This document shows positions 31,688 to 45,917 of a stretch of DNA of 64,000 nt, piece by piece (positions within the stretch are counted from its first letter, which is position 1; every line of letters begins with the position of its first letter). The position numbers and the translations under genes are program-made. The stretch is from an uncultured Methanomicrobiales archaeon (GTDB taxonomy: Archaea; Halobacteriota; Methanomicrobia; Methanomicrobiales; Methanospirillaceae). The stretch is from NCBI GenBank assembly GCA_903926075.1, contig CAIYHQ010000050.1:1-64000 (forward strand), read 5' to 3'. Under the pieces are notes generated by a model. It did not search any database. It was not told the DNA's origin and saw only the letters and a program-made list of their open reading frames with translations.

Positions 31688-32149
31688 ATGGAGTTCCTTC
31701 TCTTCCTGCTAAATAATTGTAAATATGGAATAAGCCTTGCCTATGTTGAAAGAGTTATCAGGATGGTAAAAGTTACAAGTCTGCCTCTCGCACCTGATAT
31801 TGTCAGTGGAATAATTGATCTGCATGGGACGGTTATCCCGGTTTATGACCCGAGAGTAAGATTTAATCTCCCTAAAAAGTCGTTTTCAGCATTTGATTCA
31901 TTAATTATTGCAAATAACGGTGAAAATATTGTTGGCCTTGCAGTTGAGAAAATTGAAGGGGTTGTCTCTTTAAACCAATCTATAGAAAAAGTTGATACTT
32001 CTATATCAGGGACAAATGCAATTGAAGGAGTAGTCAGGATAGATTCAGGCCTTGTCGTGATTTATGATCTTTCGCTTTTTATTACACCGATTGAAGCAGA
32101 GGAAGTTAAAAAGGTGATAACAGATTGGAAAGTGAAAAACCAAGTATAA
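31688..32149 (+). CDS. cheW: CheW-like adaptor (WspB-like)
   Basis: 153 residues, a single CheW domain: FLLNNCKYGISLAYVERVIRM, then the conserved PLAPDIVSGIIDLHGTVIPVYDPR and IVGLAVEKIEGVV. It links receptors to CheA. First gene of the seven-gene chemosensory operon; it overlaps the next gene by 25 bases. By position and size it corresponds to one of the two CheW proteins (WspB, WspD) of Wsp systems. Confidence 0.9.
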   Translation: MEFLLFLLNNCKYGISLAYVERVIRMVKVTSLPLAPDIVSGIIDLHGTVIPVYDPRVRFNLPKKSFSAFDSLIIANNGENIVGLAVEKIEGVVSLNQSIEKVDTSISGTNAIEGVVRIDSGLVVIYDLSLFITPIEAEEVKKVITDWKVKNQV

Positions 32150-33603
32150 ATATCCCTTATCAGGATGTTATCCGTGTTTCTCAATTCGTAAGCGAAAATA
32201 TTGGTTTAGAATATACTCCGGAAAGAATGAAAGATCTCGAAAAGGGAATAATAACCGCCTGTTTTAGAGAGGGTCTTTCTGATACTGAGTCCTGTTTAAA
32301 ATGGGTCCGATCAGCTGACAATATCAATGAAAAAATTCATGCACTTGCACTCAGTCTGACTATAGGTGAGACCTATTTTTTCAGGGATAAAAACCTTTTC
32401 AGGTTCCTCAGAGATGAATTTTTTCCAAGACTTATAACCCGGGCGCGGGAACATGGGAATTCTATAAGGATATGGAGTGCAGGTTGTAGTTCTGGAGAAG
32501 AACCATATTCATTATCAATTTTGCTTTATGAGTTAATACCTGACATCAAGGACTGGAATATTCAGATACTTGCAACCGATATCAATAATGATGCACTTGA
32601 TAAGGCAAAAAAGGGGGAATACAGTTCGTGGTCATTTCGTGATAATTTATTTATAATAAAAGATAATTTTTTTCAAATTAAGGGGAATGGAAAATACAAA
32701 ATTAATGACAATATTAAGAATATCGTGAAATTTCAGGAAATTAATCTGATAACCGATTCTTATCCTGATACAAGAAATGGAACAATCCTTCTGGACTTAA
32801 TTCTTTGTAGAAACGTTCTAATGTACTTCTCAAAAGACAAGGCCGCAAAAGTGATAGAAGGTTTTCACAATGCCTTGAAGGACGAAGGGTATCTTATCGT
32901 GAGCCCACAGGAAATTTCTTATCTACAGAACCAGCGATTTACCACAATTATCCGAGATGATGTATTCCTGCATAAAAAAGTTGAAAATTCAAATAAGGAT
33001 AATGAATCTGTTCTTACACATCAAATTAAATTTACTTACTCTCAGGACTACTCGCATTTTCTCCCGGAACCGGTCCAAAGATCATTTGACTCTATTACAG
33101 TCAATGAGGACAGTTTTGACACAGATGACGAGGCTTCAAAAAAAATATGGGCAGAAGTCAGCAGGCAATTATCAGTAGAATCTTCTAAATTTCAGGATAA
33201 ACCACGTATCGGGGCATTATCAGAAGCAAAAAAACTTGCTGATAATAACCGGTTTGAGGAAGCTCTCGTTTTATGCAATAAAGCCCTTGAGAGTGACCGT
33301 TTAAACCCTAAACTCCATTATCTAAAGGCAACCATTCATCAGGAAAATGGTAATGTACCGGAAGCTGTGAAATCACTTCGCCAGGCACTCTACGCAGATA
33401 AAAATTATATACCTGCACATCTCAATCTCGGTACATTAATGAAAAAAGAGGGGAAAGAGAAAGAATCAAGGCGACATTTTCAAAATGCACTGATAAGTAT
33501 GGAAGGACATGAAGATTCAGAAATTCTTGAAGATCTTGGAGGTATGACTGTGGGGAGAATCCGGGTAATGATTGAAGACTTTATTTCAGAGGCCAATAAA
33601 TGA
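32125..33603 (+). CDS. cheR: CheR-type receptor methyltransferase with C-terminal TPR repeats (WspC-like)
   Basis: 492 residues. The start TTG 32125 lies eight bases after AGGTGAT. The CheR domain (about 10-280) has the N-terminal helical part, the SAM-binding WSAGCSSGEEPYSL, and DLILCRNVLMYFSKD. The C-terminal part (about 355-480) has TPR repeats (ALVLCNKALESDRLNPKLHY, AVKSLRQALYADKNYIPAHL). CheR-TPR fusions are characteristic of WspC-type enzymes. It would methylate Glu residues of the MCP encoded two genes downstream. Confidence 0.92.
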   Translation: MESEKPSINIPYQDVIRVSQFVSENIGLEYTPERMKDLEKGIITACFREGLSDTESCLKWVRSADNINEKIHALALSLTIGETYFFRDKNLFRFLRDEFFPRLITRAREHGNSIRIWSAGCSSGEEPYSLSILLYELIPDIKDWNIQILATDINNDALDKAKKGEYSSWSFRDNLFIIKDNFFQIKGNGKYKINDNIKNIVKFQEINLITDSYPDTRNGTILLDLILCRNVLMYFSKDKAAKVIEGFHNALKDEGYLIVSPQEISYLQNQRFTTIIRDDVFLHKKVENSNKDNESVLTHQIKFTYSQDYSHFLPEPVQRSFDSITVNEDSFDTDDEASKKIWAEVSRQLSVESSKFQDKPRIGALSEAKKLADNNRFEEALVLCNKALESDRLNPKLHYLKATIHQENGNVPEAVKSLRQALYADKNYIPAHLNLGTLMKKEGKEKESRRHFQNALISMEGHEDSEILEDLGGMTVGRIRVMIEDFISEANK

Positions 33604-34211
33604 AAAAGGGGAATTTAGAGGAGGAGACAACCTCTATTGACTGGGATGATATTAAGCGCCTGATTAAAGAAACAGAACTCCACCTCTCGGAAATTTACAC
33701 TCACTCAAATGAACAAAACGAGAAGATTCTTGAAGAGAGAGCAAAAATCCTGGCAACTCCAGAGATTGAAATAACTTTGATTGAATCCATACGGGTTTTA
33801 ACATTTATCCTAGCTTACGAGAGATATGGAATTGAGACGGATAATGTTCTTGAAGTAATTTCTTTAAAGGAGGTAACCTCCCTCCCACATACACCCGCAT
33901 TTGTCATAGGTGTCATCAATTATCGCGGAAGAATTCTTTCAATTATTGATTTGAAAGCATTTTTTAACCTTCCACGAAAAGGACTCCCTGAATTTGCACG
34001 ACTAATCGTTCTTTCAGACGGGAAGATGGAGTTTGGTCTGCTCGCAGACCAGATACTTGGGACATACGATATCCCAGTTTCTGATATTGAACCCGTCCCT
34101 ACTGGTCTTTCATTACTTGGAAGCCGGTATCTGAAAGGTATGACTCATAATTCATTGATTCTTATTGATTCCCTTGCACTTTTAACAGACCAAACTATTA
34201 TTGTGGAGTGA
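33600..34211 (+). CDS. cheW: CheW-like adaptor with N-terminal extension (WspD-like)
   Basis: 203 residues. An N-terminal charged, probably helical extension of about 60 residues with ILEERAKILATPE precedes a CheW domain (about 62-200; SLPHTPAFVIGVINYRGRILSIIDLKAFF). The ERAxxLA-type extension is common in WspD and related CheW proteins. It overlaps cheR by ATGA. Confidence 0.9.
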   Translation: MKKGNLEEETTSIDWDDIKRLIKETELHLSEIYTHSNEQNEKILEERAKILATPEIEITLIESIRVLTFILAYERYGIETDNVLEVISLKEVTSLPHTPAFVIGVINYRGRILSIIDLKAFFNLPRKGLPEFARLIVLSDGKMEFGLLADQILGTYDIPVSDIEPVPTGLSLLGSRYLKGMTHNSLILIDSLALLTDQTIIVE

Positions 34212-34215
34212 AAAG

Positions 34216-34335
34216 ATGAAAAGAAGAAACCAGTCATATATTAAGTCAATTCGAAGCGAAATAAACAAGATTCAAAAAAATTTAGAATTATTTTATGTGT
34301 TCGAACAATTCCGGATTGATAGGTGGTTCATATGA
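34216..34335 (+). CDS. Small 39-residue ORF between cheW and the MCP gene
   Basis: ATG 34216 lies four bases after the cheW stop and is preceded by GTGGAG. The product starts [20 protein letters not shown] and is basic and probably helical. Its stop overlaps the most likely MCP start (ATGA at 34332-34335). This double coupling suggests it is translated, but no family is recognised and it could be a leader that tunes receptor translation. Confidence 0.45.
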
Positions 34336-37070
34336 AAACTCTTGACAACACGAAGATATGGGTAAAACTGATTGGAGGGTTTATTCTAATAAGTATCCTC
34401 TTTGCTATCGTTTCGATAACAGGAATCGCTACAATTAACAGCATTGTCGGAAATAGTCGAATAGCTTATTCTGATGGTTTTTTGCCAATTCAGGACCTCC
34501 AGTCAGTCAAGATACTTTTGAACGAAATAAGCAGGGACACACTAAGATATTATTTTTTCCCGGCAGAGAGAACAGATCTTGAATCTACAATTTCAACTGA
34601 GACCCGCGAGATAAATAACATTCTTACAAAATATAAGGCTTCATCAATAAATCCCTCAAACCAGGCGGACTTTGTAGCTTTAAATTCAAACTGGGCAGAT
34701 TATCAAAATGAACTTCAGATAGCTTTCATGGAGAGCAAATCCGGCAATACTCAATATATCAACCAAAGTCTCTCGACTAACGGAAAGCTTGTAAACCTAA
34801 GAAAAGAACTCAACAACGAAGCAGATTCAATAATTAGTGGGGAGGAGCAATGGGTAGAATCAATTCTCGCAGCAAACGAGAAAGATTCAGCAAATGCCAC
34901 TATTTTTGTTATTATTATTTCTTGTCTGGGCATAATATCAGCTATTGTCATTGGTTTTATTCTAACTAGAAATATCACCGTACCTCTGATAGACGTGATG
35001 GTCACGGCAGAAAAAATTGGAAGAGGTGAATCAAAGGCACGTGTAAATTTTGATAGAAAAGATGAGCTGGGAGACCTTGGAAATTCACTCAATATAATGG
35101 CGGGTCATATCGGGGCACTTGTCGGCGAGGCACATGAGCTCACAAAGGCAGCGGTCAAAGGAGAATTATCGGTAAGGGCTGACCCATCAGTTCATGAAGG
35201 AGATTACAGGGCCATAATTACTGAATTTAATGCCACTCTTGATGCAGTGACTGGGCCATTGAATATCGCAGCTGAATATGTAGACAGAATAAGCAAGGGT
35301 GACATTCCTCAAAAAATTACAGACCATTATAATGGCGATTTCAATGAGATAAAACAGAATCTTAATACCTGTATCGATGAAGTGAAACTTCTCATTGAAG
35401 ATGTGAAGATGCTTTCATTAGCAGGTGTAGAAGGCCGCCTATCAACCCGTGCAGATGCATCCCGACATAAGGGTGACTTCATGAAGATAGTTGAAGGAGT
35501 GAATGAGACCCTTGATTCGGTTATTGGTCCACTGAATGTCGCTGCAGGATATGTAGACAGAATCAGTAACGGAAACATCCCTGACAAGATTACAGAAAAT
35601 TATAATGGCGACTTTAATGCGATTAAGCTGAACCTGAACAAATGCATAGATGCAGTAAACCTTCTCATAAGCGATTCAAAAATGCTTTCATTAGCAGGTG
35701 TAGAAGGCCGCCTATCAACCCGTGCAGATGCATCCCGACATAAGGGTGACTTCAGGAAGATAGTTGAAGGAGTGAATGAGACCCTTGATTCGGTTATTGG
35801 TCCACTGAATGTCGCTGCAGGATATGTAGACAGAATCAGTAACGGAGATATCCCTGACAAGATTACAGAAAACTACAACGGCGACTTTAATGCGATTAAG
35901 CTAAACCTGAACAAATGCGTAGATGCAGTAAACCTTCTCATAAGCGATTCAAAAATGCTTTCATTAGCAGGTGTAGAAGGCCGCCTATCAACCCGTGCAG
36001 ATGCATCTCGACATAAGGGTGACTTCAGGAAGATAGTTGAAGGAGTGAATGAGACCCTTGATTCGGTTATTGGCCCTGTGAATGAGGCATTACGAGTATC
36101 AAAAGAATATGCCCGAGGTGATTTTACTGCCAGAGTCTCTGAATCCCTTTCTGTGAGGGGCGATTTCATAGAATTTAAAGATGCTCTAAACAAGATAGGG
36201 GTCGAACTTTCAAAGCTTATGAACCTCCTTAATGAAGAGATCTTTGAGGGTGTGAATGTGCTTTCAGCAGCTTCAAGTGAGATCCTCGCAATTACTGCGC
36301 AACTGTCAGCCGGTGCGAATCAGACTGCTACATCTGTAAATGAGACTACGGCTACTGTTCAGGAAGTTAGAAAGACCACAGACCTGACAAGTGAGAAATC
36401 AAAATATGTTGCTGAAAAAGCAGTACAGGTCAATCAGATAGCAGAAAAAGGACAAAAATCAGTAGATGAGATAATTGCAGGGATGAGTCATATCCAGCAG
36501 CAGATGGAGGGCATTGCAGGAAATGTTGTCAGACTGAGTGAGCAAAGCCAGGCAATTGGTGAGATAATAGCTTCAGTAAACGATATTTCAGAGCAATCAA
36601 ACCTCCTCGCAGTGAACGCCTCGATTGAAGCTGCAAAAGCAGGTGAATTAGGAAAAGGTTTCGGTGTGGTATCACAGGAGATTAAAAACCTTGCAGACCA
36701 GTCAAAACAGGCGACTTCGCATATAAGAACTATTCTTACTGATATTCAGAGAGCCGTCAGTTCCACGGTCATATCAACTGAACAAGGGACGAAAACCGTC
36801 CTTAACGGGTCTAAGTTGTCATCAGAGGCACAGGAATCAATAATTGTACTCTCGAAGAGTATAGCAGATTCTTCAAAAGCAGCTATTCAGATTACGGCCT
36901 CTGTCCAGGAACAGGTGGTTGGAATGGATCAAATAGCTCTTGCTATGGAGAGCATAAGGGAAGCTGCGCAAAGTAATCTTGCAGTAACAAAGCAGGCTGA
37001 AAAGACTGCACAAAACCTCCATGACCTCGGATTAAAGCTAAAACAGGTAGCAGGCCGCTATAAGGTTTAA
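34332..37070 (+). CDS. mcp: Methyl-accepting chemotaxis protein with tandem HAMP-like repeats (WspA-like)
   Basis: About 912 residues from ATG 34332; the GTG at 34323 is a weaker alternative. TM1 (about 10-32), an extracytoplasmic four-helix-type sensor domain (about 33-185), TM2 (about 190-215), and a HAMP domain ([18 protein letters not shown]). Then come four or more HAMP-like units of 91 residues. The C-terminal signalling domain (about 620-900) has the hairpin tip [23 protein letters not shown] and [14 protein letters not shown]. It would control the CheA encoded downstream. Confidence 0.93.
35409..36080 (+). repeat. 273-bp tandem repeats in the MCP gene
   Basis: Near-identical units with an exact 273-bp period (ATGCTTTCATTAGC at 35409, 35682 and 35955); about 2.5 units, with more diverged related units upstream (35130-35408). 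Each unit encodes 91 residues of a HAMP-like pair, including [14 protein letters not shown] and [13 protein letters not shown]. The array is open to slippage or recombination in whole-codon steps. Confidence 0.92.
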
Positions 37071-37081
37071 AGGACGTTGTG

Positions 37082-39370
37082 ATGAACACGAAAGATGAGG
37101 AGTTTCAGAAAAGACTCCTCGTTATGTTCAGGGAAGAAGCAAGGGAGCACCTTGATTCAATTACCAAGGGACTACTTGACCTTGAAAAAGAAGTCCCAAC
37201 TGATGAAAAAAAAGAGATAATCGAAAGGGTGTATCGAGAGACCCACAGTCTGAAAGGTGCAGCACGAGCTGTAAGCCTCTCGAGGGTAGAAGGGCTCTGC
37301 CAGAACCTCGAAAGCGTCTTTTCTGCACTAAAAAGAGGAGAAACAACAATTGATTCCTCCTCATTTGATCTGTTGCATAAAGTTGTTGATAACCTGTCCA
37401 AAATCATCTCACCGGATGACTTACCCGTAGATGAAAGAGATATTGAACAATTGATCTCAAATCTGAAAAATCTCTTACTGGTTCAATCCCAAAAGCCTGC
37501 AGAAGATCAAAAAAAAAATATTGAAACAGGGTCAACTGGGGATAATATCGAAAAACCCGTTGAAATAAAAGAGAGCGAACCACTCCTGTCACGTGGAACT
37601 GTTAGAGTGGCTACCTGGAAACTGGATTCACTCTTTTCTAAAACCGATGAACTTATAATGTGGAGGCTTGCCCAGGGGCAGATGGTTGCTGACCTCAAAG
37701 ACCTTAATATAAGATTCCAGGAATGGTTCTGGAATTATTCAAAGATCAATTCTCAGTTCCTTAAACTGAAGCAGAGCCTTGAAACAAGAAGTGATGATAA
37801 CCGAAATGAAGGTTTCACGTCTGATCTGCTCAGGTTAACTGAATTTCTTGACTATAATAGAAATTTTATTGATACTATCGAGAGAAGGACAAGAACACTT
37901 ACTGAAAATGCAACAAAAGAGAATTTTGGGCTATATGAATTTACCGAGTCCATCAGGGAAGAAGTTAAAAGGACTCTTCTCCTGCCTGCATCAGTTATTC
38001 TTGATAATTATCAAAAATTCGTACGGACCTTTTCGCGTGAAAAAGGAAAAGAAGCTGAATTGATCTCATCAGGGGCCGAAATAGAAGTTGATAGAAGAGT
38101 CCTTGATGAATTGAAGGACCCGTTGCTTCATCTTATACGAAACAGTATTGATCATGGTATTGAGAATGAAAAGGAGAGGTTACAGGCAGGAAAGTCTAAA
38201 AAAGGTAGAATTAAAATTAACCTCTCTTCTGTTGCCGGGAACAGGTTTACTATCACATATGAGGATGATGGCAGGGGAATCGATCTGGAGGCAGTTAAAA
38301 ATTCAGGCCTGAAAAACGGAATTTTCTCAGAAGACCAGCTTGACAAATTAACTGAATCTGAAATTCTCACTTCAATCTTTTATTCAGGCCTCTCTACAAG
38401 CCAGATAATTACTGATACATCAGGGAGGGGTCTCGGGCTTGCTATAGTCCTTGAAAAAGTTGAAGCACTCGGTGGATATATTGATGTATCAAGCGAAAAA
38501 GGGAAGAGTACACGTTTTGAAATAACGCTTCCCCTGACTATTGCCACGTTTCGAGGGGTGCTTGTGAGGGCCGGAAAATTGCGCTATGCAATACCTATTA
38601 GAAATATCAAACGTGTTTTTATGGCCAAAACGACAGAAATTGAAACAATTGAGAACCGTTCAGTTATCAGGATAAATGGAGTTCATCTTTCTATAATCCC
38701 TCTGGAACAGGTTCTGTATGATAAAACAGGTAATGAAGATGACAAACCTGACTCTTTCCCGGCGATATATTTGCATGACCACGGAAATGAGATACTTCTT
38801 CAGGTTGATGAAGTGCTGGCATCAATTGAAGTGCTTGTAAAAACCCTTGGGCCTCAGTTGAAACATTTGGAAGGGGTCGCAGGCGCAACAATACTTGGAA
38901 ATGGATCAGTCATCCCGGTTTTAAGGATAGACGAAATAATCGAATCCGCAATAAAAACAGACTTTTCTGTTACTGCAGAGAGTGGACGAAAAGATACTGA
39001 CAAGAAAGCTCCAAATATTCTAGTCGCAGAAGACTCTATCACGTCCAGGATGCTATTGAAGAATATATTAGAGGGGGCAGGATACAAGGTTGAGACTGCA
39101 GTAGACGGAGTCGATGCTTTTTCAAAGATTAAGACCGGTCAGTTTGATGTTCTCGTATCTGATGTAGACATGCCACGCATGAATGGGTTCACTCTTACAG
39201 AGAAGGTCCGTGCTGACCCGAAAAATTCGGATATTCCGGTAATTCTTGTAACCGCTCTTGAATCACAGGAAGATAAAGAGCATGGAATTGAGGCAGGGGC
39301 AAATGCTTATATTGTGAAAAGCAGTTTTGATCAGAGTAACCTGCTTGAGGTAATATCACGTCTTTTGTAA
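37082..39370 (+). CDS. cheA: Hybrid CheA histidine kinase with C-terminal receiver (WspE-like)
   Basis: 762 residues from ATG 37082 (AGGA at 37071). Hpt domain about 1-120 with phospho-acceptor His55 in RETHSLKGAARAV; no CheY-binding P2 domain is evident; an atypical helical region (about 190-320); HATPase with LIRNSIDHGIE and DDGRGIDLEAVK; CheW domain (about 500-630); then a receiver with Asp694 in LVSDVDMPRMNG. CheA fused to REC and lacking P2 is typical of Wsp/Frz-type pathways. It would phosphorylate its own REC, CheB and the REC-kinase downstream. Confidence 0.93.
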   Translation: MNTKDEEFQKRLLVMFREEAREHLDSITKGLLDLEKEVPTDEKKEIIERVYRETHSLKGAARAVSLSRVEGLCQNLESVFSALKRGETTIDSSSFDLLHKVVDNLSKIISPDDLPVDERDIEQLISNLKNLLLVQSQKPAEDQKKNIETGSTGDNIEKPVEIKESEPLLSRGTVRVATWKLDSLFSKTDELIMWRLAQGQMVADLKDLNIRFQEWFWNYSKINSQFLKLKQSLETRSDDNRNEGFTSDLLRLTEFLDYNRNFIDTIERRTRTLTENATKENFGLYEFTESIREEVKRTLLLPASVILDNYQKFVRTFSREKGKEAELISSGAEIEVDRRVLDELKDPLLHLIRNSIDHGIENEKERLQAGKSKKGRIKINLSSVAGNRFTITYEDDGRGIDLEAVKNSGLKNGIFSEDQLDKLTESEILTSIFYSGLSTSQIITDTSGRGLGLAIVLEKVEALGGYIDVSSEKGKSTRFEITLPLTIATFRGVLVRAGKLRYAIPIRNIKRVFMAKTTEIETIENRSVIRINGVHLSIIPLEQVLYDKTGNEDDKPDSFPAIYLHDHGNEILLQVDEVLASIEVLVKTLGPQLKHLEGVAGATILGNGSVIPVLRIDEIIESAIKTDFSVTAESGRKDTDKKAPNILVAEDSITSRMLLKNILEGAGYKVETAVDGVDAFSKIKTGQFDVLVSDVDMPRMNGFTLTEKVRADPKNSDIPVILVTALESQEDKEHGIEAGANAYIVKSSFDQSNLLEVISRLL

Positions 39371-39385
39371 TTGAAATGGAGAAAA

Positions 39386-40444
39386 ATGATCCGTGTATTA
39401 ATTGTAGATGATTCACCCGTAATCAGAGAAGTTATCTCACAGATACTTCAAAAAGACCCTGAGATTTCTGTAATCGGTGCTATTGGCAACGGCGAGGACG
39501 GTGTCAAAGCAGCAGTTGAGATGAGTCCTGACCTTATAACAATGGACATAAATCTGCCAGGAATAAACGGCCTAGAGGCCACCCGCAGAATAATGAACCT
39601 TAAACCGGTTCCAATAATCATTGTGAGCAGCACGGTTGATAATTATAATATTTCAACTTCATTTCAGGCGATAGAAGCAGGAGCTCTTGCTGTTATGAGA
39701 ACACCACCTGGTCTGTTGAACCCAACTTTTGAGAATTATGTTCAGGAACTCATCAATACTGTAAAACTTTATTCTGAAATTAAAGTTGTTAAACGTCGTT
39801 TTATAAAATATAACGTGTCCAGTCCTGTTGCAGAACCATATTCTACCACCGATGTTAAGATGATGGATGTTGAAATAGTAGTAATCGGTGCATCCACCGG
39901 GGGACCTCCTGTTGTCGCCACAATATTAACAATACTTGGACCTAATCTTTCAGTTCCTGTACTTATAACTCAGCACATGTCTCCAGGATTCATTACAGGC
40001 TATGCAGAATGGCTCTCCAATTCAAGCAGTGTTTGTGTCAGAGTTCCGGAAGATAACGAGGTCCTGATTCCTGGAATAGTATATGTAGCTCCTGATAATG
40101 TGCATATGGGGGTAAAAGAGAAAGGTAGAATCCATTTATCGAACGAAGACCCAATTAAAAGCCTGCGACCTTCTGTTGGTTACCTGTTCAGGACCGTTGC
40201 TGAGACATACGGGAAAAAAGCACTAGCTGTAATACTTACAGGTATGGGTGACGATGGTGCATCTGAAATGGGGCTAATCAGGAAAAAAGGAGGGATCACA
40301 ATTGCTCAGGACGCAGAAAGTTCTATTGTCAATGGAATGCCCGGGTCCGCAATATCACTCGGTTCAGTCAAGTATATTTTGCCCCCGGAACTGATAGCAG
40401 AAAAAGTCAAGTCACTATTGGAAAAAAAGGTCAAATTCAATTGA
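39386..40444 (+). CDS. cheB: CheB methylesterase (WspF-like)
   Basis: 352 residues from ATG 39386, preceded by GGAG at 39378-39381; the TTG at 39371 is less likely. The REC domain has Asp54 in MDINLPG; the methylesterase domain has Ser170 in IGASTGGPP, a His in TQHMSPGF and an Asp in LTGMGDDGASEM. It removes methyl groups from the MCP and opposes CheR. Confidence 0.94.
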   Translation: MIRVLIVDDSPVIREVISQILQKDPEISVIGAIGNGEDGVKAAVEMSPDLITMDINLPGINGLEATRRIMNLKPVPIIIVSSTVDNYNISTSFQAIEAGALAVMRTPPGLLNPTFENYVQELINTVKLYSEIKVVKRRFIKYNVSSPVAEPYSTTDVKMMDVEIVVIGASTGGPPVVATILTILGPNLSVPVLITQHMSPGFITGYAEWLSNSSSVCVRVPEDNEVLIPGIVYVAPDNVHMGVKEKGRIHLSNEDPIKSLRPSVGYLFRTVAETYGKKALAVILTGMGDDGASEMGLIRKKGGITIAQDAESSIVNGMPGSAISLGSVKYILPPELIAEKVKSLLEKKVKFN

Positions 40445-40459
40445 AGTATGGAGGAACGT

Positions 40460-41680
40460 ATGAGTGATAATGTAGTGGATAGAAAAAGAAGTTATATTCT
40501 TGTCGTAGAAGACAGTCCAACCCAGGCAGAAATGCTCAGGCATCTTCTTCTGCAGAACAATTATATGGCGAGGGTTGCAAATTCCGGTGAAAATGCACTT
40601 GAAATTATAAAAGAAGAGACACCAGATCTTGTTTTGACTGATATTGTTATGCCAGGTATGGATGGATATGAACTCTGCAAAAAAGTGAAATCCGGACAAT
40701 TTAATGAGGACATACCCGTTCTACTTGTTACCGCATTATCAGACCCTAAAGATCTTATACGCGGACTGGAATCCGGGGCAGATAACTTTGTTGTGAAACC
40801 TTATGATGGAGCTGATCTTGTTAATACTGTAAACGACCTTCTTCTTGATTTTTCTTTAAAGAAACATGATGAAAGGGAAGAAGCAGCGATAATTATTGAC
40901 AATGAGCAATACATCGTATCAGCAGACAGGAGGAAAGTTATTCGTTTTCTCCTGTCTACTTATGGAGCTGCAGAAAAGAAAAGGAGAGAACTTGAAGCTG
41001 AGGTTTTAAACAGGAAGGCTGTTGAAGATGCACTTCGTCAGGCAAATAAAAAACTGAATCTCCTTGGGAGCATCACCCGTCACGATGTCCTGAATAAGAT
41101 TATAATTCTTAATGGTTTCATTCCGTTTATAAAGAAAAAGATAACTGATGAGAAAGTACTTGAGGATTTTGTCCGTATTGAACAGGCAGGCATTGCAATT
41201 CAAAGGCTTATAAACTTCACAAAGGAGTATGAAAACCTGGGCTCAGAGAGTGCAAGGTGGCAGGATGTGGACTCAATTGTCAATGGGACATTAATACAGC
41301 AGTTTGCGAATCGTATTGAGTTAAAGACTGAATTAAAGGGGCTTATGCTATTCGCAGACATTATGCTCGAAAAAGTCTTTTATAACCTTGTTGAGAATGC
41401 TGTTAGACATGGCGGGAAAATTTCACATATAAATATTTATTTTATCCAGGATGGAGAAAACCTGAAGATAATCTGTGAGGACGATGGGTCCGGAATAGCC
41501 GATAAAGAAAAGGAATCAGTCTTTGAGAGAGGTTATGGACAAAATACTGGTCTGGGCCTCTTTTTAATCCGTGAAATACTCTCCATTACTGGGATTTTAA
41601 TTAAAGAGAACGGTAATTTTGGCAAAGGTGCCCGCTTTGAAATCCTTGTTCCACCAGGGAAATACCGGTTATCGACCTGA
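40460..41680 (+). CDS. REC-histidine kinase, probable output of the Wsp-like pathway
   Basis: 406 residues from ATG 40460, five bases after GGAGG; an in-frame ATG at 40448 overlaps that site. The REC domain (about 10-130) has Asp61 in LTDIVMPGMDG. A short coiled linker leads to a kinase core with His208 in SITRHDVLNK and an HATPase with DDGSGIADKEKESVF and LGLFLIREIL. There is no transmembrane segment and no HTH or GGDEF domain. It takes the place of WspR at the end of the operon, suggesting a phosphorelay to an unlinked partner. The core is homologous to that of the 160-1749 kinase. Confidence 0.9.
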   Translation: MSDNVVDRKRSYILVVEDSPTQAEMLRHLLLQNNYMARVANSGENALEIIKEETPDLVLTDIVMPGMDGYELCKKVKSGQFNEDIPVLLVTALSDPKDLIRGLESGADNFVVKPYDGADLVNTVNDLLLDFSLKKHDEREEAAIIIDNEQYIVSADRRKVIRFLLSTYGAAEKKRRELEAEVLNRKAVEDALRQANKKLNLLGSITRHDVLNKIIILNGFIPFIKKKITDEKVLEDFVRIEQAGIAIQRLINFTKEYENLGSESARWQDVDSIVNGTLIQQFANRIELKTELKGLMLFADIMLEKVFYNLVENAVRHGGKISHINIYFIQDGENLKIICEDDGSGIADKEKESVFERGYGQNTGLGLFLIREILSITGILIKENGNFGKGARFEILVPPGKYRLST

Positions 41681-42151: not shown

Positions 42152-42889
42152 CTATTTGATAACTACAGATGCTGTTTCGTCAAATGGATTTGTCCTTATA
42201 GCGAGGGAGAAGAGATATGGATATTTTCTCTTCAGATATTGCATATACGAAATCCAGGAGATAACAAGCTGTTTATAGACCCTCTGAAGGTCTAATTGTA
42301 TATGTGCTATGTCCGAAGGGGGTAATATTCCAAAATCTTTTCTTCTTTCAAGTTCATCCATAGCATGAAAAACCGCCTGCAAAAGTTCAGTAAAAGAATC
42401 ATGTTCAAGAACTACAGGGTTTTCCAATAACTGGACCAGAAAATCCCCATTCTCTTCGAGGCATTTTTTAACTTCCATGATACATACAGTGCTTATTTTG
42501 ATATTGAATATGTGACCCTCAATCTTCATTCTTGCTCGTTCAAAATCATTAACACTCCATGAGTCAATAATTATCAGTTCATTTCTTAATTTAATGAGAT
42601 CTTCATCTGCTTTTATCATTATATCGAGGAGTACGGTCCCTACCCTATTATAAAAGACTCCGATAACCATGTTAAGTTTTTCGAGTCTTTGCGAACGTTC
42701 GTGAGACTCAAGGAGGCGTTGAAGGATGACTGTGACAATAAGGACCTCAATAGGTATAAAGGCAATATTACTGATGAGATAAAAGAGAATATAGTTAATA
42801 TCCCGGAAGATGAAGTATTGCACTGAGTATAAACTAATGGATAACAGGATAAGCCCTGCACTTATCAAGACTAGAGACCTGTTATTCAT
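42152..42889 (-). CDS. Membrane protein with two N-terminal helices and a long cytoplasmic helical domain
   Basis: 245 residues. Two hydrophobic segments (about 6-28 and 33-57) are followed by a charged, mainly helical domain (about 65-245) with no recognised motif. It lies five bases downstream of the subtilase-type gene on the same strand, so it may be co-transcribed with it. Family not recognised; similar 2-TM proteins occur scattered in methanogens (from memory). Function unknown. Confidence 0.6.
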   Translation of the reverse strand: MNNRSLVLISAGLILLSISLYSVQYFIFRDINYILFYLISNIAFIPIEVLIVTVILQRLLESHERSQRLEKLNMVIGVFYNRVGTVLLDIMIKADEDLIKLRNELIIIDSWSVNDFERARMKIEGHIFNIKISTVCIMEVKKCLEENGDFLVQLLENPVVLEHDSFTELLQAVFHAMDELERRKDFGILPPSDIAHIQLDLQRVYKQLVISWISYMQYLKRKYPYLFSLAIRTNPFDETASVVIK

Positions 42890-42893
42890 GATT

Positions 42894-45800
42894 TCAGGAC
42901 TTGTTTTTCACTGAAGAAAGTGGGAGCTTATCTATATTATTTTCATTAATTACGAAATCACGGGTTGTAAATCCATCTTTACCCGCATTTTTGGGGTTTT
43001 CAGAGAACCCAGTACCATCCAGTGAACCCCAGAAGTTTCCTCCGATATATGGTCCTCCTATAATATTTGGCCCTGTCTTCTTCTGTATATTCCATTTATT
43101 TGAAGTGCTGAGGTTGTAGATATAAAAGTTCTTTTGATTATTAAAGAGATTATTATAGATAAGATTATCTTCTGCAAGGTTTAGTCCAATTCCCACAAAA
43201 TTACCCTGAAATAGGTTCGAATTCATTGTGTTATTACTGACATTCGAGATAAGGACACCATGCATGTCATTGTTCTCAATGAGATTTGTAGAAATTTCAG
43301 TTTGATTTGCATTCGTTAAAAATACACCGTCGTTTGAATTTCCACTTATGACATTACCTTTCAAAATATTTTTTTCTCCGGTTAAAACAATACCTCTGTT
43401 TTCATTCAGTATGAATGAACTCTTTTCAACCGTGTTTTTATCAGCGAGGGTGAATACAGCTCCCACAAGGTTCTTTGAGAACGAACTTTTTGATATGATA
43501 TTATCTTTGGAATTTTTAAGTACCATTATACCCATGATATTTCCAGAACCCTGTGAATCAACAATTTTAGACTTACTGGAGCCTAATATAGAAATACCTG
43601 CATAATTATACTCAAAATCACAATTTTCAATTGAAACATCCTTTGTATTATAGAGTGCGATACCACAGAATAGATTTGTGAACTTCAGGTTCTTGATAGT
43701 CACTCTTTCGATTGTTTTATTTGACCCGGTTGTGGTTACAAATATCCCAAATTGCTTTTGTGATGTATTAAGTCCAATAGTAGTCTCAATTCCTTCTATA
43801 GTATGGCCCTGCCCGTCTATGACTACATCGGATGCCATTACATGGATAACAGGTTCGGTGTTTAGCAGAAGATCATTATCCAGCAGATAAACTCCGGATT
43901 TATTTATAACAGCCGGCCCTTCAATCAGGTGCTCTCCAGGGTTGAGTTTTTTTGTTGTTACCGGTGTGGGGGTATGAACAGGTATCTTTGTTGGTGTAAA
44001 ATTTAATGATGGAACTGGCATACCCTGAAGTTTCTCATACATTTTTACAGCGTTTGGTGATCCATATCCATTTACAGGGTCCCACCCTGCTTCGCCAAGG
44101 TCATTTGCGGTATCATACAGTGCACTCTTAATAATACCTGCGGTCATATTTGGGAAAGCACTCCAGATGGATGCCGTAAGCCCTGCAATATGTGCTGCAG
44201 AGGCACTTGTTCCTATAAACGGGACTTCAACACTTCCGGCCCTTGTTACAGACACTCCGGAAGGAGCAACAACATCAGGTTTTCTACGAATTTCCTGTTT
44301 TGGATAAATAATGGTAACAGGGCCCTGTGAGGAATAGTTAAGTACTTTATTTTGGGATGTCTGTGATATTGCACCTACAGTAATTACAGAAGGCACCGCG
44401 GCATGACCAAATATTGAATCTTCAGGTCTGATATTGTCAGGAAGTATTTTTGAACCGCCAAGTGGATACAGATAAATTTCAAGGATACGCGGGTCAGCTT
44501 TCTTCTTGAAGTTCTCTACCGCTACGCCAACTGTTATAGTTTCACTGCCCGTATTTTCATAAATACATTTTTCAAGTGGTTTGTCATCGCCGTTCTGTAA
44601 ACGTTTACTGTATGAGAGGATATCCCCGGTTTTTGCATTGTACATGTAAAGGTCATAATCATTCTTTGATGAATCCCAAGGGTCATCCCACTGAAGTACA
44701 CCAAGGAGGTAACCGCCCCTGGGAACTTTTACGTAAAGATCTTTGTATGGGGAGGTGCCATCACTAAGGTCAGCAAAAGTGTCATTAGGTTGTGCAACGT
44801 ACATGCCTTGGTAATGCCTGCCTGCATCGTTTCCAGCAGCTGTAATATGGATACTGTATGGATTGTTTTTAAGGATATCATTTAGGTGAGTGGCAATCAT
44901 GCCATCTTCAAAATATGGCACCTGCAGCCAGCTTATGTCATCAACCACTATCTGGCAGCCAGCATCATTGAGTGCATCCAGAGCCGAATTAAATTCAATA
45001 TAATTCGATCCACAGTCATGAAAATAAAGTTCTGCCCCTGGAGCGATATCATGTATTATCTCAAGCATTGACACTCCTTCGTCCCCGCCATATGCGTTGC
45101 TTAGTACATGAACATTTAATGGTAGATCCCCTGTTGCCTGTGATTCATTCAGATGATCGACCCCATCAGAGATGACACCTACTTTTATGCCTGTCCCATT
45201 TGCACCGAATTTTTCTCTGACTACATCTGTTCCAATTATTTTATCGCCTTCGGTCATCACGGACCCTATATTTCTGACTGGAGTTGTTAATTCATCGATA
45301 GATGAGACTGCAGGAAGTTTCGCAATTTCAAGTATATTCTCCTTATCTGCCCAACCCGTTATAGTTGTTTTATCTGACTGGAAACTTCTTTTCACATCCA
45401 GATAGTGGGTAATTGTTGAAATGTCCGCCAGATCTCTGAAATTGATCTCTATATGATGAAGATCTTTATTCGATTCTCCAATAGTATCCCCATTCGATTC
45501 CAGCTTCGTAAGTCTGTCAGACGAAAAAGGTTCAGTAATATCTGGCTTTTCAAGGTCGCTTGAAAGTTTGGTATCAAGGAGCGTTTTTTCACCGGTTTTT
45601 TGAGGGCGAATATAATTTCCTTCAGCTTGATCCCTGATTACTTCAGTTTGCCCGGTCAACCTGGAAGAAACATCCTGAATTTTATCTGTACTTAAATCCT
45701 GTATACCATAGAGATTTACAGTGTCCTGTATTGAGTGAAAAACATCTTGCTCCTCTTGTTTAAGAATAGGAGTGTAGAGAATATTATTTGGGTTCAGAGT

Positions 45801-45917
45801 GTCTTCTTCTTTGTATTGATCAGAAAGCACACCCGCTGTTGCACCGGGTATTATTAACATTATGATGAATAAAGCAACAATTGAAGCAAATGCCAGTGAT
45901 ATTATCTTGTTGTTCAT
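42894..45917 (-). CDS. Secreted subtilase-like protein with NosD-type beta-helix
   Basis: 1007 residues. Signal peptide about 1-29; propeptide-like region (about 35-215); an S8-type domain (about 240-630) with Asp251 in VGVISDGVD, Asn363 in TAAGNDAG and Ser571 in FIGTSASAAH. Where subtilisins have HGT, this protein has DEG (Glu280) in GDEGVSMLEIIHDIAPGA. A TPTPV linker leads to a right-handed beta-helix (about 680-1000) of NosD/PbH1 repeats such as IENCDFEYNYAGISI. Inference: surface protease or a binding protein with an altered active site. Confidence 0.85.
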   Translation of the reverse strand: MNNKIISLAFASIVALFIIMLIIPGATAGVLSDQYKEEDTLNPNNILYTPILKQEEQDVFHSIQDTVNLYGIQDLSTDKIQDVSSRLTGQTEVIRDQAEGNYIRPQKTGEKTLLDTKLSSDLEKPDITEPFSSDRLTKLESNGDTIGESNKDLHHIEINFRDLADISTITHYLDVKRSFQSDKTTITGWADKENILEIAKLPAVSSIDELTTPVRNIGSVMTEGDKIIGTDVVREKFGANGTGIKVGVISDGVDHLNESQATGDLPLNVHVLSNAYGGDEGVSMLEIIHDIAPGAELYFHDCGSNYIEFNSALDALNDAGCQIVVDDISWLQVPYFEDGMIATHLNDILKNNPYSIHITAAGNDAGRHYQGMYVAQPNDTFADLSDGTSPYKDLYVKVPRGGYLLGVLQWDDPWDSSKNDYDLYMYNAKTGDILSYSKRLQNGDDKPLEKCIYENTGSETITVGVAVENFKKKADPRILEIYLYPLGGSKILPDNIRPEDSIFGHAAVPSVITVGAISQTSQNKVLNYSSQGPVTIIYPKQEIRRKPDVVAPSGVSVTRAGSVEVPFIGTSASAAHIAGLTASIWSAFPNMTAGIIKSALYDTANDLGEAGWDPVNGYGSPNAVKMYEKLQGMPVPSLNFTPTKIPVHTPTPVTTKKLNPGEHLIEGPAVINKSGVYLLDNDLLLNTEPVIHVMASDVVIDGQGHTIEGIETTIGLNTSQKQFGIFVTTTGSNKTIERVTIKNLKFTNLFCGIALYNTKDVSIENCDFEYNYAGISILGSSKSKIVDSQGSGNIMGIMVLKNSKDNIISKSSFSKNLVGAVFTLADKNTVEKSSFILNENRGIVLTGEKNILKGNVISGNSNDGVFLTNANQTEISTNLIENNDMHGVLISNVSNNTMNSNLFQGNFVGIGLNLAEDNLIYNNLFNNQKNFYIYNLSTSNKWNIQKKTGPNIIGGPYIGGNFWGSLDGTGFSENPKNAGKDGFTTRDFVINENNIDKLPLSSVKNKS

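Follow-up and report, generated by a model that had tools for sequence, protein, structure and literature searches.

An ACF-like chemosensory operon with a linked receiver-histidine kinase in an uncultured Methanomicrobiales archaeon

The stretch of DNA analyzed here (the window; positions 1 to 64,000 of contig CAIYHQ010000050.1, assembly GCA_903926075.1, from an uncultured Methanomicrobiales archaeon) carries a chemosensory operon at positions 31688-41680. Most work on archaeal chemosensory systems has concerned the archaellum. By trees and domain content, the CheA of this operon is alternative cellular function (ACF)-like and not archaellum-type, and the operon as a whole is probably one of bacterial descent in which CheA controls a receiver (REC)-histidine kinase through Asp65. 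Open reading frame coordinates and Pfam searches confirmed seven co-directional genes on the + strand, in the order cheW, cheR-TPR, cheW, mcp, cheA-REC, cheB and REC-histidine kinase, with the domains given in an initial annotation made from the sequence. The absence of CheY, CheC, CheD and CheF from the cluster was likewise as described, and all four are found on contig C74 of the same genome; no single-domain receiver gene lies within the operon.

Neighboring genes of the operon overlap (by 4 bp for cheR and the second cheW) or lie 0-8 bp apart (the REC-kinase start is 3 bp past the end of cheB), the exception being a 111-bp gap between the second cheW and mcp. Given this spacing, the gap aside, the seven genes look like a single transcription unit. 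A chance arrangement can be excluded, since the gene order is conserved in relatives. Catalytic residues are intact throughout: His56 and Asp695 in CheA, the GASTGG motif in CheB, and Asp65 and His212 in the REC-kinase. The phosphoacceptor of the REC-kinase had been numbered Asp61; the residue stands, being Asp65 when numbering begins with the first ATG (40448) and Asp61 when it begins with the one at 40460.

Pfam assigned Hpt, HATPase, CheW and REC domains to the window CheA and returned neither a P2 nor an H-kinase_dim match. In an AlphaFold model (alignment of 27 CheAs, pLDDT 77), the Hpt domain (residues 3-137) is followed by a disordered linker (138-178) in the place of P2, a two-helix P3 (179-300) that escapes Pfam, P4, P5 and a REC domain (646-763), in agreement with the earlier description of a CheA lacking P2. 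Thermotoga and E. coli CheA were the first Foldseek matches of the model. A C-terminal REC, commonly with no P2, is the trend reported for the ACF class (PMC10782961); both traits are present in the window CheA, and its own REC is kept in every relative inspected. Identity with the archaellum-type CheA of the same genome is only 28%, and in the trees the window protein fell among ACF-like CheAs, with the archaellum CheA of its own genome and two ChpA-type CheAs outside. Domain content and trees thus rule out an archaellum-type origin, and the expectation that CheA would not group with archaellum-type systems was borne out.

In a scan limited to one genome per species, most matches were bacterial, with CheA identities of up to 44% over the whole length. 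The gene order was equal or nearly so in Verrucomicrobiota, Nitrospirota, Thermodesulfobacteriota, Chlamydiota, Bacteroidota, Ignavibacteriota and others, and the last gene of the bacterial operons encoded a REC-kinase, REC-PAS-kinase, REC-PAS or REC-GGDEF protein. Comparison of these output proteins with the window REC-kinase gave ∼40-45% identity over residues 12-206 but only ∼22-26% over the kinase part, where the H-box also differs (archaeal TRHD versus bacterial SHDLRTP or AHDLRNP). Directly behind the receiver, whatever the C-terminal output, lies a connector with the consensus IExxFxGxxYxIxxxRxQILxLLLSTYExAVxKNxEL, for which no convincing Pfam match was obtained in the window REC-kinase or in four longer examples. 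In an AlphaFold model of the REC-kinase (12 sequences, pLDDT 79), a β-hairpin (144-159) leads into a single helix that continues into the DHp domain; the top structural match of this model was LvrB, a REC-kinase of Leptospira. In the closest clade, 29 loci are bacterial; a connector protein was found at 24 of them, and four of the other five run into a contig end. Given that the kinase behind the connector is of archaeal type, the receiver and connector appear to accompany CheA as the output domain changes.

Within the order Methanomicrobiales, a survey of 150 genomes identified 46 ACF-type cheA loci, distributed over 44 genomes. A REC-connector protein was encoded within 8 kb of cheA at 45 of the 46 loci, the remaining one being cut by a contig end; linkage of a REC-kinase-type protein to cheA, as opposed to an unlinked kinase with a CheY nearby, therefore held across the order. 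Two layouts were observed among the inspected loci, those of the window's own genome included. The long layout is that of the window and of loci L045, L046, L049, L056 and L068, and two more archaeal long operons emerged from the genome-wide scan, in an uncultured Methanomicrobiales archaeon (L119) and an ANME-2 archaeon (L093). The short layout is commoner (36 loci) and consists of two fused CheWs (separate in a few cases), mcp, cheA-REC, a REC-kinase and, usually, an additional PAS-kinase; neither cheR nor cheB was seen in the short clusters inspected. One such reduced operon is a paralogue in the same genome as the window (L010, on contig C111), comprising a CheW-CheW fusion, a Cache MCP, CheA-REC and REC-kinase, with neither cheR nor cheB; its CheA and REC-kinase are 38 and 42% identical, respectively, to those of the window. 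In another genome of the order, contig C22 of G047 carries a divergent REC-connector-kinase gene (L174) beside a second cheW-cheR-cheW cluster that is truncated where the contig ends.

Quick and careful CheA trees agreed. The window CheA was placed with bacterial ACF-like CheAs at 100/100 support, and the archaellum, Tfp and WspE CheAs lay apart from them. All archaeal ACF-type CheAs formed one clade together with bacteria (support 98 to 100), the CheAs of the window, L049, L068 and all short operons formed a clade (support 99-100), and the short-operon CheAs formed a single 100/100 clade. Thus, the reduced operon constitutes a single lineage, for which the simplest explanation is descent from a long ancestor through loss of cheR and cheB. 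Since L045/L046, L056/L119 and L093 do not join the window and short-operon lineage, the CheA phylogeny suggests more than one exchange between bacteria and archaea, the direction depending on the root; branches outside that lineage are weak. Quick trees of CheB and of the REC-connector gave no starred set around the window sequence and do not settle gene-by-gene co-transfer.

MCP-CheW-CheA arrays, adaptation by CheR and CheB, and transfer from Hpt to receiver domains are established for these protein families. In the window operon, receptor arrays would govern CheA autophosphorylation at His56, and the phosphate would have three destinations: the REC of CheA itself (Asp695), serving as a sink or modulator, CheB, and the REC-kinase receiver at Asp65. 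Once phosphorylated, the REC-kinase receiver would rearrange the β-hairpin-capped signaling helix, switching the autokinase (His212) on or off, and the REC-kinase would then phosphorylate an unlinked response regulator. The receiver-connector would serve as the conserved CheA interface, with an exchangeable domain behind it, here an archaeal TRHD-type kinase. Given the precedents of CheA3/CheS3 and LvrB, control of the REC-kinase by phosphorylated CheA through Asp65 is most likely, and the second cheA/REC-kinase pair in the same genome would count in its favor.

Several observations weigh against this reading. The proposed phosphotransfer from CheA to the REC-kinase is drawn from sequence and analogy, and CheA may have unlinked single-domain receivers as its main targets, dozens of REC domains being encoded in the genome. 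Unlinked REC-connector proteins occur at 42 places in the order (mostly lone REC-kinases among the 11 inspected, which include L174), and the connector is therefore not exclusive to che clusters. In G133, the connector protein encoded with the reduced operon (L082) has the architecture REC-PAS-PAS, with no kinase domain detected. Finally, the direction of transfer, bacterial or archaeal, hinges on tree rooting.

An unlikely alternative to control through Asp65 is that the REC-kinase is mainly a phosphatase, or a sensor node for other inputs, and that CheA acts mainly on its own REC or on CheB in a feedback-only array. Linked connector proteins with no kinase domain (REC-PAS in L093 and L082) and the conservation of the CheA REC in every relative would fit such an arrangement. 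However, the REC-kinase retains His212, the ATP-site motifs and Asp65, and a REC-kinase adjoins cheA in nearly every reduced operon, where cheB is missing.

A further explanation, considered improbable, is that the operon represents a second chemotaxis system for the archaellum, in which CheA would phosphorylate the CheY of contig C74 in trans and the REC-kinase would be a side branch or phosphate sink. The 3.14-Mb genome does encode an archaellum with CheY and CheF; the linked system on contig C74 comprises flaHIJ-like genes, CheF, CheY, CheB, CheA and CheD. In addition, the long ACF-type operon is the only CheA system detected in G011 and G002, two related genomes with archaellins and the archaellum ATPase in which neither CheF nor an H-kinase_dim CheA was detected. 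Against this, the window CheA lacks the CheY-docking P2 domain, no CheY, CheF, CheC or CheD was present in any inspected cluster, and the genome already has a complete, separate archaellum-linked system. Moreover, G133 (93% complete), which carries the reduced operon, yielded no match for archaellin, archaellum ATPase, CheF or H-kinase_dim. CheF is also present in 38 of the 44 genomes carrying an ACF-type cheA, so the idea that ACF operons occur only where archaella are absent is wrong. Taking together the lack of a linked CheY or CheF, the lack of P2 and the case of G133, and setting these against the ambiguous G011 and G002, a non-motility role for the operon is likely rather than shown. There is no evidence for surface-protein display, the output that had been suggested in the initial annotation.

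The coordinates of the operon and its parts are collected in Table 1.

Table 1. Features of the chemosensory operon in the window
Feature	Position	Strand	Evidence
cheW1, 153 aa, coupling protein	31688..32149	+	Pfam CheW, E 2.8e-23
cheR with C-terminal TPR repeats, 492 aa counted from TTG	32125..33603	+	Pfam CheR, E 5.6e-49; TPR matches 371-455; SAM-site motif AGCSSGEE
cheW2, 203 aa, ∼65-residue N-terminal extension	33600..34211	+	Pfam CheW, residues 66-197, E 2e-30
mcp, 915 aa: 4HB sensor, HAMP, four HAMP_2, MCPsignal	34323..37070	+	Pfam
273-bp unit inside mcp, 3.1 tandem copies, 90% matches, encoding repeated HAMP_2 modules	35238..36084	+	Tandem Repeats Finder
cheA, 763 aa: Hpt (His56), disordered linker, two-helix P3, P4, P5, C-terminal REC (Asp695)	37079..39370	+	Pfam, AlphaFold, residues, trees
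cheB, 357 aa: REC and methylesterase	39371..40444	+	Pfam CheB_methylest, E 2.3e-56; tree
REC-histidine kinase, 410 aa, proposed pathway output	40448..41680	+	Pfam REC and HATPase_c; AlphaFold; linked in relatives
Receiver domain of REC-kinase, residues 17-128, phosphoacceptor Asp65	40496..40831	+	Pfam; Asp65 column invariant
Connector, residues 144-195: β-hairpin 144-159, signaling helix from 161, LLSTYxxA	40877..41032	+	Bacterial output proteins, model
Kinase part: end of signaling helix, DHp with TRHD (His212), catalytic ATPase domain	41033..41662	+	Pfam HATPase_c, H-box comparison, model

The true start of cheR may be further in than the TTG at 32125. The window receptor has three near-identical copies of the 273-bp unit; the other long operons encode ordinary receptors of ∼545 residues. 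Beyond the operon, on the minus strand at 42152-45917, lies a convergent pair of genes encoding a 245-residue protein with no Pfam match and a 1007-residue S8-peptidase/NosD-repeat protein of surface type. Common target genes downstream of the operon were considered and discarded, the downstream reading frames at L045, L049, L056 and L118 appearing unrelated in N-terminal sequence and size.

Elsewhere in the genome, orphan CheWs, a PAS-CheW fusion and a CheR are encoded. An orphan CheR on contig C111 adjoins a 699-residue protein that combines PAS domains with a CheW domain at the C terminus (L009:9013-12014). On contig C70, an orphan CheW has as a near neighbor a PAS-kinase that shares 48% identity with the window REC-kinase in the kinase part (L012:4734-8722). 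The archaellum-linked CheA of contig C74 (L013:8194-10893) has P2 and H-kinase_dim domains and a CheC fused at its C terminus.

The REC-kinase had been presented as standing in place of the diguanylate cyclase WspR. It is instead the output normally found in the sister operons of bacteria, and because these carry a kinase output, the notion that archaea invented it is ruled out. Such an output is not new, since the ACF class (PMC10782961), Che3/CheS3 (PMC3868531) and WspH (PMC8552884) are already known. The connector segment and the stripped-down archaeal operon look new: in the literature searched, no description was found of either or of the output swap on a common receiver-connector, and archaeal ACF CheAs themselves may already be catalogued. 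A more speculative extension, possible but on balance doubtful, is that the connector, 40-50 residues long, is a dedicated, transplantable adapter through which output domains of nearly every kind (PAS, GGDEF, HisKA kinase or archaeal kinase) can be coupled to ACF-type CheAs. On this reading, Methanomicrobial archaea would have acquired the adapter as part of the operon, joined a kinase of their own to it and later arrived at a minimal array in which the CheWs are fused and dedicated methylation enzymes are missing. The operon and its reduced paralogue show that alternative-function systems are embedded throughout a methanogen order, with kinases and not CheY as the linked partners. They offer a natural series, with constant receiver and connector and varying output domains, for testing how a single chemosensory core comes to drive new outputs, and the reduced array, with no CheR or CheB of its own, is a test case for whether adaptation is dispensable.

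Among named systems, Wsp of Burkholderia (output WspH) and Pseudomonas (output WspR) resembles the window operon in having a CheR-TPR and two CheWs in its parts list. It is nonetheless highly improbable that the operon is a genuine Wsp system that was transferred to archaea, has a WspH-like kinase where WspR would be, and controls surface attachment. The equal parts list and the use by Burkholderia Wsp systems of the REC-kinase WspH in place of WspR (PMC8552884) would favor that origin. However, once WspE references (L191-L193) were added to the tree, they formed their own clade with 99-100% support and the window CheA lay in another, ruling out Wsp membership. Wsp also begins with mcp (wspA(mcp)-B-C-D-E-F), whereas mcp is fourth in the window (W-R-W-mcp-A-B). 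Its output is WspR (REC-GGDEF) or WspH, and the connector of the window REC-kinase was not detected in the WspR/WspH-type proteins of L191-L193. In L193, mcp is first and an annotated diguanylate cyclase last. Furthermore, Wsp has been found only in beta- and gammaproteobacteria (PMC8552884). Of the earlier label, Wsp-like (ACF), the second part is therefore upheld by the trees and the first is not. A separate Wsp-like operon with mcp first (L187:6564-11136) ends, as read by eye, in a gene for a receiver with an apparent PP2C-type phosphatase domain.

Other candidates were set aside as precedents: the C. testosteroni Flm pathway is of the Tfp class with a single-domain receiver, the Geobacter Esn chemosensory network has a diguanylate cyclase output and another layout, and the Corallococcus Cc-5 cluster also has another layout. 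The archaellum system on contig C74 shares CheA and CheB homologues with the window, but its CheA has P2 and a fused CheC and is accompanied by CheY, CheD, CheF and flaHIJ, which the window operon lacks. LvrB has the same REC-DHp-CA layout as the window REC-kinase, and its kinase is activated when phosphorylation of the receiver brings about a coiled coil (PMC13269768). By contrast with the window protein, LvrB belongs to no chemosensory operon and is phosphorylated by another hybrid kinase, and a β-hairpin connector is not reported in the portion of the text searched.

In Che3 of Rhodospirillum centenum, CheA3 phosphorylates the CheS3 receiver and thereby shuts the CheS3 kinase off (PMC3868531). 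Like the window operon, Che3 (CheA3-CheS3-CheY3) encodes a CheA with a C-terminal REC alongside a REC-bearing histidine kinase. CheS3 differs in having two RECs, a PAS domain and an HWE kinase, and passes phosphate on to a linked CheY3, whereas the window operon has no linked CheY. A gene cluster of Che3 layout (L136) fell outside the window CheA clade, and the connector was not detected in its CheS3-like protein. The unnamed bacterial ACF-like operons of, for example, Verrucomicrobiota, Nitrospirota, Chloroflexota, Geobacter and Ignavibacteriota (L091, L101, L104, L108 and L118) share with the window an equal or nearly equal gene order, a CheA of ∼40-44% full-length identity and a linked REC-connector protein, and differ in that theirs is a bacterial kinase (HisKA or others), often with PAS, whereas that of the window is of the TRHD type.

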